Positions 1 to 14,886 are shown, counted from the first letter of the stretch. The stretch: DNA of 51,894 nt from an uncultured Acidobacteriota bacterium (GCA_902826455.1 CADEEV010000031.1:1-51894), one strand, 5' to 3'. The notes: generated by a model from the letters alone, not told the origin. A program made the numbers and translations.

Positions 1-759
1 ATGCGCCGGATGTTCCGCTGGGCCATCGCCCGCGGCACGGTGTCGGCCTCGCCCTGCGCCGGCATCGAGACCCCCGCGAAGTCGAAGAAGGGGAACAAGA
101 CCTACACCAACGACGAGCTCCGGGCGATCTTCACGGCGATCCCGGGCTCCCAGGTCGAGCACCTCGTGCCGCTCATCGCCTACTGCGCCACCCGCTCAGA
201 CGAGACGCGCTCGGCCCGGTGGGCCGACTTCGACCTTGAGCGGAAGGTCTGGCGCATCCCGCCCGAGAAGTCGAAAACCGGGAGCCTCACGGGTGACGCC
301 CACGACGTGCCGTTGAGCGCCGGCGCACTGCGCGTCCTCGAGGCCGTGCGCGAAGCCAACGTCAAGGCCAAGGTGTCCGCGAGCGAGTACCTCTTCCCCG
401 CCACTGCGGACAGGAAGGGCGGGGCCCGGGGCGAGGACGACAAGCCGATCCGAGGCGAAGACGCCCGGCGCGAGGTGCGCCTCAGCAACTACATGGGCAA
501 GCCGAACCGCACGATGGATCGCCTCTCGGCCAGCACGGGCGTCGAGAAGCTGGGCCTTCACAACATCCGCAGGACCGTCGCCACCCGCCTGAGCCAGCAC
601 GGGACGCGCGTCGAGGTCATCGAGTACATCCTCGGTCACGCCCTGCCGAAGTTGATCACGACCTATCAGCTCCACGTCCCGCTCGAAGCGATGCGCGAGG
701 CCCTCGACTGGTGGAGCGACGAGCTCGACCGCGTCCTCGCGGCGAAGGCGACGGCGTGA
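1..759 (+). CDS. int: Tyrosine recombinase/integrase, 5' end cut by window edge
   Basis: C-terminal catalytic domain of a phage-type tyrosine recombinase, which would integrate and excise the element that fills the left 14.9 kb. The catalytic set is visible in the 252 residues present: Arg65 (CATRSDE), a likely Lys92 in the beta hairpin (EKSKTG), the H187-N-I-R190 box, His213 (LGH) and the nucleophile Tyr222 (TTY). The first residues (MFRWAIARG) match the end of the core-binding domain of the family, so the SAM-like and arm-binding parts lie left of position 1 and the ATG at 1 is not the true start. It overlaps the next gene by GTGA at 756-759. Family assignment is firm; the target site is inferred. 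Confidence 0.93.
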   Translation: MRRMFRWAIARGTVSASPCAGIETPAKSKKGNKTYTNDELRAIFTAIPGSQVEHLVPLIAYCATRSDETRSARWADFDLERKVWRIPPEKSKTGSLTGDAHDVPLSAGALRVLEAVREANVKAKVSASEYLFPATADRKGGARGEDDKPIRGEDARREVRLSNYMGKPNRTMDRLSASTGVEKLGLHNIRRTVATRLSQHGTRVEVIEYILGHALPKLITTYQLHVPLEAMREALDWWSDELDRVLAAKATA

Positions 760-1388
760 AGGCCCCCAAGAAGGACAGGATCGAGGCGGCGAAGGAGCGT
801 GCCCATGCCCGCGTTGGTCCGCGCCGAGGCAAGCGCATCCGCGGGGGCAAGCACCCGGGTTACCTTCGCAATCGGAGCGCGGCGGATCTTGCCCGCGAGA
901 TCGATTCGCTTGAGGAGATCTGGTCGACGCGGCGTGACCCCGGAGCGTTCTACGACGCGCTGATGCTTTCTGCCATCCGGGCTGACCGGCCGTTCCACGG
1001 CGGCGAGCGCTCTACACGCGACAGCCTGCCACTTCCCCGCTGGGTACTAGACGAGGTGCTCACTCGCGTACGGGCCGAGCTCCGCACCATCTCGTGGGAT
1101 GGCGGCCCGAAACGCGGTGGCCGCACGGCCCGGTGGATCGAGCGCTACAAGCAGGACCGCATCGACGAGCGGCGGCACTCGGAGGTGGAGCCCTTGGTCA
1201 CTGAAGACAGGCTCACCCTGGAAGAGGCGTTCGAGACGGTGACGCTCGAGCTGGAGGGAACGTTCGCCGCCGGATCCACCGACGCCATCCGTCACTCCTG
1301 GCAGAAAGTTAAGAGGCGCAGGGGCGCCAGCGCCACCTACGAGGCGTACTTCGTGAAGATCCCGCTCGGACCCACGGAGATCGACTAG
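756..1388 (+). CDS. Hypothetical element protein, 210 aa
   Basis: Not recognised as a named family. The GTG at 756 overlaps the integrase stop (GTGA), which supports translational coupling; an in-frame ATG at 711 would overlap the integrase more and is less likely. The protein is charged and begins with a Lys/Arg-rich segment (KAPKKDRIEAAKERAH). It then has helical stretches and ends in a short segment (IRHSWQKVKRRRG) resembling the tail of small phage or island DNA-associated proteins. It lies between the integrase and the AlpA-type regulator. A role in recombination directionality or regulation is possible, but nothing in the sequence proves it. Confidence 0.7.
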   Translation: MKAPKKDRIEAAKERAHARVGPRRGKRIRGGKHPGYLRNRSAADLAREIDSLEEIWSTRRDPGAFYDALMLSAIRADRPFHGGERSTRDSLPLPRWVLDEVLTRVRAELRTISWDGGPKRGGRTARWIERYKQDRIDERRHSEVEPLVTEDRLTLEEAFETVTLELEGTFAAGSTDAIRHSWQKVKRRRGASATYEAYFVKIPLGPTEID

Positions 1389-1468
1389 CCGCAAACCTCC
1401 AGGGTTTTCGGTCTCGACCCTCTCTCCCGCCATGCGCCAGCATTCGGCAGCACATGAGGAGGGACGAG

Positions 1469-1723
1469 ATGGACACGCCGAACACAGAAGCGCCGGTAGC
1501 CCGTGGCGAGCGCCTCGTATCGCCGCGCGATCTCAAGTCGATCGTCGGGGGCCTGAGCGAGTCCACGATTCGCCGCCTCATCGCGGAGGGACGCTTCCCG
1601 GAGCCCATCACCCTGGCGCGCAACCGCCACGGCCGACCCGTCCGCATCGCCTTCGTCGAGAGCGAGGTGCTCGCGAAGGTCGCGGAGTGGATCACGGCGC
1701 ACCGTCGCAACCGGGCGTTGTAG
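1469..1723 (+). CDS. alpA: AlpA-type MerR-like helix-turn-helix regulator
   Basis: An 84-residue protein with one winged helix-turn-helix domain of the AlpA/excisionase type: LVSPRDL, then STIRRLIAEGRFPEP, then a wing and a C-terminal helix containing EWI. Proteins of this type control integrase or excision genes in P4-like satellites, PICIs and prophages. The ATG at 1469 is preceded by AGGAGGG (1457-1463) at 6 nt, so it is preferred over the in-frame ATG at 1454, which precedes that ribosome-binding site. The next gene starts directly after its stop codon. The domain is clear; the target promoter is unknown. Confidence 0.85.
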   Translation: MDTPNTEAPVARGERLVSPRDLKSIVGGLSESTIRRLIAEGRFPEPITLARNRHGRPVRIAFVESEVLAKVAEWITAHRRNRAL

Positions 1724-2608
1724 GTGCCGGCCGAAGCGCAGGCCGTCGCGAAGGCGGCCGTAACGCACCAGAAGTTGGACCCGCCCGAGTCCACGTCGAA
1801 GGCGGTCTACATCAAGGTCATCCTCGACCAGCATAGGAAGGGGGTCGAGGCCCTGATCGGGATCGGAACCGTTCTGCTCGAGGCCAAGGCGAAGCTCGAG
1901 CACGGCACCTTCACCGACATGGTGGAGAACGACCTGCCCTTCGGTCCCCGGCAGGCGCAGTATCTGATGGCGATCGCCGGCCATCCTGTCCTGGCAAACC
2001 CGAAGCACACTTCGCTTTTGCCGGCCGCCCAGGGGACGCTCTACGCGCTCTCCCGGATCCCGGCGTCCGACCTTGAGAAGGCGATCGACAAGGGCCTCAT
2101 CCGGCCCGAGATCCAGCGCGCCGAGATCGACATCGTCAGGGGGCGGATCCCGGCCCCAGCGCCGAAGCGCCCTACGCCGGCCCCGACCCCGAGCTCCTCG
2201 GCTGACGAGTCGAAGATCGCCAAGAGCGCCCCCACGAATCCGCACCTCTTCAAGCACCTCAAGCGGGAGAAGACCGCCGAGGACTGGGCCGGGATGGCGT
2301 CACGGATCGCCGACACGATCCAGGTGAACGCCGACCTACTGGCCGAAGTCCCGGCCGACGTACGTGCATCGGTGCAGGCATCCGAATGGGTCGCGAGCCT
2401 CAGCAAGTCCAGGACCGAGATCACGCGATTCATCTCAGCATGCGAGCGACGGCCCGAGGATCACATCGTCAGCAACGACGTGGTCACGACCGTGAATGCA
2501 TTGATCAACGCAGTGATCCGAGGCTCGTATAGCAGGGATGTCTACCTCAAGGCGTCCAAGGTCCGGAAGGCTCTGGCCGCCAGCCCTGCCAGTCGGGCGG
2601 ACGTCTGA
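1724..2608 (+). CDS. DUF3102-like element maintenance protein
   Basis: A 294-residue protein. Residues about 40-85 match the DUF3102 pattern seen in phage and plasmid proteins (LLEAKAKLEHGTF, then FGPRQAQYLMAIA), a small helical DNA-binding-like domain often found with replication or partition genes. A Pro/Ala-rich linker follows (about 145-165), then a helical C-terminal half without recognised motifs. GTG at 1724 begins right after the alpA stop, and the stop overlaps the helicase ATG (TGATG). The tight packing suggests one early transcript with alpA and the helicase. A role in replication or partition is inferred. Confidence 0.75.
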   Translation: MPAEAQAVAKAAVTHQKLDPPESTSKAVYIKVILDQHRKGVEALIGIGTVLLEAKAKLEHGTFTDMVENDLPFGPRQAQYLMAIAGHPVLANPKHTSLLPAAQGTLYALSRIPASDLEKAIDKGLIRPEIQRAEIDIVRGRIPAPAPKRPTPAPTPSSSADESKIAKSAPTNPHLFKHLKREKTAEDWAGMASRIADTIQVNADLLAEVPADVRASVQASEWVASLSKSRTEITRFISACERRPEDHIVSNDVVTTVNALINAVIRGSYSRDVYLKASKVRKALAASPASRADV

Positions 2609-14412: not shown

Positions 14413-14819
14413 GGGAGATTTTCGCGGACGCCGGGCACTTTATAGCCGTGCTGCACCCCGAAGACCACCTTCACGAAAAGGCGAAGGCTGTCGTCTCGGA
14501 GCTCGGCGCCCATCGCCTAGTGACCACGGAGATGGTCCTCGCAGAGGTGTTCACCTACTTCGCGGGGTTTGGGCCTGGACCACGAGGCGTTGCCGTACAG
14601 GCGGAGAAGACGCTGCGCGCTGACGCCAACGTGGTTCTCCTTCCTCAGACGAGCAAGTTGTTCCGGGAAGCGAGCGGCCTCTATGCGTCCAGGCCCGACA
14701 AGGCGTGGAGCCTCACTGACTGCGCTTCCTTCGTGGTGATGGAGGAGCGCGGAATCCGCGAGGCCTTGGCACACGACATTCATTTCGAGCAGGCAGGCTT
14801 CAAAGCCCTCCTCAAGTAG
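14409..14819 (+). CDS. PIN-domain ribonuclease (VapC/COG2402-like)
   Basis: A 136-residue PIN protein with the expected acidic residues: the first Asp in IFADAGHFIAVL, Glu in TTEMVLAEVF, Asp in WSLTDCASFVV and a late Asp in LAHDIHFEQAGF. These four form the Mg-binding site of PIN nucleases such as VapC. The close match of the last 60 residues to the COG2402 pattern (RPDKAWSLTDCASFVVMEER) is striking. TTG 14409 overlaps the upstream stop (TTGA), so translation is coupled to the 312-residue partner. It is the last gene before the tRNA-Pro, a usual place for defence cargo. Confidence 0.82.
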   Translation: MREIFADAGHFIAVLHPEDHLHEKAKAVVSELGAHRLVTTEMVLAEVFTYFAGFGPGPRGVAVQAEKTLRADANVVLLPQTSKLFREASGLYASRPDKAWSLTDCASFVVMEERGIREALAHDIHFEQAGFKALLK

Positions 14820-14844
14820 TGGCACCCCCAGGGCACCCAAATTG

Positions 14845-14867
14845 AAAAGGGCCCCTTGCGAGGCCCT
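14845..14867 (-). terminator. Rho-independent terminator after tRNA-Pro(CGG)
   Basis: On the minus strand a 6-bp stem AGGGCC/GGCCCT with an 8-nt loop is followed by TTTT (bases 14845-14848 on the plus strand are A). It lies about 20 nt past the tRNA 3' end and would end the leftward tRNA transcript. It could also stop read-through from the PIN gene, but the U-tract fits the minus strand. Confidence 0.6.
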
Positions 14868-14886
14868 CGTAAGTTATTGATTAGAT

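Follow-up and report, generated by a model that had tools for sequence, protein, structure and literature searches.

The first 14,886 nucleotides of a 51,894-nucleotide contig from an uncultured Acidobacteriota bacterium (GCA_902826455.1, CADEEV010000031.1; the entire contig, C31, is the window analysed here) belong to an integrated element that carries a small terminase (TerS) and a prohead protease and has no large terminase (TerL), portal or capsid gene. The element is probably a satellite of the phage-inducible chromosomal island (PICI) type, which would redirect the terminase of a helper phage and supply a maturation protease of its own, perhaps with a helical partner protein encoded at 7564. 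This reading is favoured because the element is bounded, because it has the int, alpA, D5 helicase, HNH and terS set, because TerL, portal and capsid are absent even as remnants, and because the arrangement recurs in the phylum. An earlier note on this DNA had proposed a satellite, and its inventory is borne out by Pfam and PHROGs matches: the integrase, AlpA regulator, DUF3102 protein, SF3/D5 helicase, ERF protein, HNH nuclease, P27-type TerS and prohead protease all lie where it placed them, followed by regulators and cargo (HTH_8 proteins, PDC-M32A and a PIN protein) up to tRNA-Pro(CGG).

On the evidence of its sequence, the element is bounded, with about 15.6 kb between 45-bp attachment (att) repeats in tRNA-Pro. 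The tRNA-Pro(CGG) gene (14887-14964, minus strand) lies directly beyond the right end, and 45 bp of its 3' half (14887-14931) form the right att site. When the tRNA region was searched against the same genome, the left att site appeared as an exact copy of these 45 bp on contig C82 (10976-11020 of the reverse complement). The 5' end of the window interrupts the integrase gene, so that the window holds the C-terminal 252 residues of a tyrosine integrase (1-759, plus strand; PF00589, E 1e-16); on C82 the att copy is followed by an integrase N-terminus of 172 codons running to the contig end (reverse complement 11190-11707). Aligned to the same reference integrases, the two halves cover adjoining stretches (residues 4-165 and 175-397 of that of L182, for example) and leave hardly a gap between one half and the other. 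The size is the sum of about 732 bp on C82, a gap no longer than a few codons and the 14,886 bp shown here. Since the element is bounded at both ends, there is no space for concealed head genes: to the left of position 1, where the earlier note advised extending the assembly, C82 holds just the integrase N-terminus and the second att site.

Neither Pfam nor PHROGs gave a family match to TerL, portal, capsid, tail or lysis proteins among the main open reading frames (ORFs) of the element and most of the small ones, in agreement with what the first reading had failed to see. Hidden Markov models (HMMs) for capsid, portal and TerL, built from relatives by iteration from single seeds, detected no fragment when all six frames were searched. 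The sequence features expected of a Gram-negative PICI are present: an integrase with an att site at a specific chromosomal position (the integrase being split between C82 and C31), an AlpA-type regulator or excisionase close to int (1454-1723, plus strand; PF05930, E 2.6e-5, above the cut-off), a replication module of its own (D5 helicase and ERF) and, at 15.6 kb, about one third of phage size with no full structural or lysis module. What defines the capsid-forming PICIs (cf-PICIs) is that they encode a capsid and portal themselves as well as the two terminase subunits; the element has TerS and protease only. The names sid, psu and delta do not occur among the Pfam and PHROGs matches of the scanned ORFs, the P4 models not having been searched directly.

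The genes that are present follow the order of an HK97-type phage (HNH, TerS, then protease) minus the motor, portal and shell. The HNH endonuclease gene (5512-5862; PF01844, E 7.5e-7) lies upstream of TerS, and similar HNH genes are present in phage loci bearing related proteases; all genes of this block are on the plus strand. TerS, of the P27 family and 102 residues long (6693-7001; Terminase_4, 5.7e-9; phrog_83 (TerS), 1.6e-12), aligns with the TerS proteins of three elements in other genomes of the phylum (G092, G122 and G203). The S78 prohead protease (8206-8949; PF04586 (Peptidase_S78), 3.6e-33; phrog_80, 6e-31) is the sole one in the host genome; it has a C-terminal tail of about 100 residues and no capsid domain. 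It is probably active, since it keeps His46 and Ser97, two residues that do not vary across 32 relatives.

The same combination recurs. The search for S78 proteases covered 396 genomes of the phylum, and the DNA flanking the proteases was read. Two further bounded elements combine TerS with an S78 protease and lack TerL, portal and capsid. Copies of a 49-bp repeat in tRNA-Lys, at 4297 and 18627, enclose the 14.3-kb element of G092 (contig C8, L124), which encodes an integrase, a helix-turn-helix (HTH) regulator, a Prim-Pol primase, Terminase_4 (1.1e-20), a 212-residue protein, the S78 protease (2.3e-43) and cargo. That of G122 (contig C75, L142) spans 10.7 kb between 20-bp repeats with one mismatch, one located at the tRNA-Asn 3' end and the other beside the integrase; it encodes an integrase, AlpA, a D5 helicase, Terminase_4 (2.4e-6), a short protein, the S78 protease (7.1e-15) and a tape-measure-like protein. 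Both share with the window element a tRNA att site, an integrase, an HTH or AlpA regulator, a primase or helicase, P27 TerS and the protease, and both differ from it in replication genes, cargo and middle proteins, the latter without detectable homology to the 7564 protein. A fourth, smaller element, in G203 (contig C111, L139; 61-bp repeat at tRNA-Leu, 8.9 kb), has TerS followed by a homologue of the 7004 protein, and no protease. The tRNA targets, replication modules and cargo of these elements differ, so they do not represent copies of a single wreck. The tape-measure-like protein of G122 (L142 6571-9153, 861 residues; phrog_3336, 6.5e-48) is accompanied by no other recognised tail gene, and the element might set tail length. 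The G203 element contains interspersed 33-nt repeats with a spacing of about 61-66 nt and a separate 84-nt tandem repeat (L139 7536-8378 and 3939-4106).

Just two genes separate TerS from the protease, as originally described, and neither product (7004-7582 and 7564-8196) has a Pfam or PHROGs match above chance. The 7004 protein, of 192 residues, carries the motif GTRPW..WW ... ESxAxYLKRHxxLxxxEERRLxPxDF. Its homologue in G203 lies immediately 3' of TerS (E 8.5e-9, 39% identity), and the short protein of G122 is a possible relative. Pattern and alignment scans of IMG/VR and GTDB contigs for the 7004 protein found none. The lack of a match in PHROGs, and of a credible match to either the 7004 protein or its G203 homologue among 50,697 phage records, suggests that 7004 is a satellite gene rather than a phage gene. 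Its predicted structure has a pLDDT of 40, too low to use. The 7564 protein, of 210 residues, is predicted by AlphaFold2 from the single sequence to form a long helical hairpin (pLDDT 70; helices 13-45 and 74-150), and its position and shape make it a candidate scaffold-like protein or size factor. In G092 its slot is taken by the 212-residue gene, which has no detectable similarity to it. The helical proteins of L124, L139, L142, L179 and L180 were compared with it as possible homologues, and no homology was detected.

From this gene content we infer a course of events for a PICI-type satellite. Infection by a helper would lead to excision of the element by Int and AlpA and to its replication by the D5 helicase and ERF. 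The P27-type TerS, with the HNH nuclease, would turn the helper TerL toward satellite DNA, which would then be packaged into heads built from helper capsid and portal. The satellite protease would mature those heads or mis-time their maturation, and the helical 7564 protein would perhaps act as a scaffold or size factor. The protease could serve to take over maturation in heads that exclude the helper protease, to shift the timing of scaffold removal and hence head size, or to spoil helper heads.

Several observations weigh against such a satellite. The join between C82 and the window is a deduction that rests on the duplicated att sequence and the divided integrase rather than on reads. The data contain no near relative of the window element. 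The predicted fold of the 7564 protein found no match in a fold search; no relatives of the protein turned up in IMG/VR, among GTDB contigs or in phages, and 193 genomes of the same class gave just marginal matches. No helper is known: the search of the host genome for an HK97-type prophage that the earlier note called for came back empty, with no match to the PF05065 capsid, PF04860 portal or PF03354 TerL in a genome rated 100% complete, and two PF03237 matches only, both below the cut-off. A helper must therefore be external or of another head type.

The lack of a resident helper would also fit a decayed prophage, one that lost TerL, portal and capsid along with its tail and lysis genes and kept TerS and the protease by chance. 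So would the setting of the related proteases, most of which, where enough flanking DNA is present, adjoin a capsid-sized gene, and the fact that P27 TerS, HNH, the S78 protease and ERF are all ordinary phage genes. This explanation, the main alternative in the earlier note, has lost ground and is now unlikely. No capsid, portal or TerL remnant is present in the six frames and no tail family in the ORF scans, neither intact head genes nor frameshifted pieces of them lie to the left, the att sites and integrase are intact, and the same partial set stands in bounded elements of two other families, which sit in other tRNA genes and differ in their replication genes. A slightly less likely history is that a satellite with TerS, protease and capsid lost the capsid gene alone, which left it immobile or dependent on the capsid of another satellite. 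Elements with protease and capsid and without TerL or portal are common in the phylum (L121, L122 and L185-L187), and TG93 has TerS, protease and capsid (PMC13230959), but the capsid is missing from three separate elements, so that its loss would need to have recurred, and no capsid remnant lies 3' of the protease. That the protease is instead a weapon, which blocks helper heads by premature cleavage of their scaffold as a defence beside the PDC-M32A/PIN cargo, is improbable. It would suit this idea that the protease is intact and has no capsid from the element itself to act on, that the element also carries candidate defence genes, and that interference with helpers is common among PICIs (PMC6092414), but in the window, G092 and G122 the protease sits in the packaging block near TerS and not with the cargo.

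The PICI-type reading can also be set against known systems. Mycobacterial phiRv1 and phiRv2 retain a capsid gene. These prophage-like elements and phiBN42_1 resemble the window element in being integrated and in having partial head sets, theirs in about 10 kb; phiBN42_1, with integrase, excisionase, primase, prohead protease and capsid, likewise keeps the capsid gene that the window element lacks (PMC3986857). Gram-negative PICIs such as EcCICFT073 and PmCI172 are likewise a fraction of phage size and, like the window element, have int, an AlpA-type regulator, a gene for replication and in some cases terS; they may also hold one head gene, as is known for these two, but the lone head genes on record are a capsid homologue or decoration protein, whereas that of the window element is an S78 protease without a capsid (PMC6092414). 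Two sources (PMC10690885, PMC13230959) describe cf-PICIs as bringing HNH, TerS and a head maturation protease on a satellite, like the window element, but also as encoding capsid, portal, connectors and TerL, of which the window element has none. Among published elements TG93 comes closest. This satellite-plasmid (PISP) from Vibrio crassostreae has, like the window element, a small terminase, a head maturation protease, a MerR-like regulator and no tail genes, but differs in having a capsid gene (Capsid protein E) and in being a plasmid without an integrase (PMC13230959). The earlier note's belief that the strategy was undescribed therefore holds in part: a limited literature search found no account of a satellite that combines TerS with the protease and lacks a capsid, while partial head sets in satellites are already published (PMC6092414, PMC13230959).

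The genes of the element are open and run in a single direction to about 12 kb, with a codon-position GC pattern typical of real genes. Between the integrase and AlpA lies a 211-residue protein (753-1388) without a match in Pfam or PHROGs and without significant similarity to the 217-residue gene at the same position in the G122 element. AlpA is followed by the DUF3102 protein (1724-2608; PF11300, E 4.7e-6; phrog_6146, 1e-7), by the D5-type SF3 replication helicase (2608-4080; D5_N, 4.8e-18; DUF5906, 1.6e-12; phrog_6088, 1.8e-114), which resembles the C-terminal part of phage primase-helicases (positions 310-764 of the 772 of phrog_6088), and by the ERF single-strand annealing protein (about 4267-4980, start uncertain; PF04404, E 3e-19). 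A possible winged-helix regulator (5859-6275) has a weak match (phrog_1687, E 0.01). Beyond the protease are three Fis-type HTH_8 proteins (9531-9890, 9887-10681 and 10684-11019; 3.6e-8, 1.3e-5 and 1.8e-4, respectively), and further small genes between their region and the cargo. Two genes without a family match (12020-12361 and 12361-12642) are on the minus strand; the other protein-coding genes named for this element are on the plus strand. The cargo consists of the candidate phage-defence protein PDC-M32A (13474-14412; PADLOC, E 2e-45; phrog_30544, 1.1e-12) and an overlapping PIN-domain gene (14409-14819; PF01850, 3.6e-6), a pair (13474-14819) that is possibly a two-gene defence or toxin-antitoxin system.

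Other S78 protease loci of the phylum hold different portions of the head set, with the qualification that some of them are truncated by a contig end or by the 20-kb limit of the stretch and that the HMM could miss divergent capsids. TerL and protease without portal or capsid are found in L177, L179, L180 and L191, the L179 element being bounded by a 51-bp repeat (4007-18721). The helical proteins (187-192 residues) 3' of the protease in L179 and L180 share homology (30%, E 2e-15). Protease and capsid alone are held by L121, L122 and L185-L187. L121 (4789-14321) and L122 (5159-14492) are small tRNA-bounded elements, both in G125, that encode an integrase, the protease and an HK97-type capsid and gave no match to TerL, portal or TerS. 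Portal, protease and capsid without TerL occur in L119, L178, L183, L184 and L189; L119 (2397-18559) is a 16.1-kb tRNA-Arg element with a 55-bp tRNA repeat in which portal, protease and capsid, and no TerL, were detected. Head sets are complete in L141, L176, L181, L188 and L190. L123 (G121) has the protease and none of TerL, portal and capsid, and its element ends were not found.

The satellites known so far divert packaging, make capsids smaller or supply complete heads. More tentatively, and at somewhat short of an even chance, the phylum may hold a recurring class of satellites that hijack helper heads with TerS and a prohead protease and without a capsid, so that the control of maturation, and not capsid building or size alone, would be the point of hijack. 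If this is true, such satellites would add a further control point over helper assembly. The detection of satellites would also widen, because searches keyed on capsid or on P4 and PICI markers can miss such elements. The graded series in the phylum, from TerS and protease, TerL and protease, protease and capsid, and portal, protease and capsid to the full set, suits the study of how satellites gain and shed phage genes.

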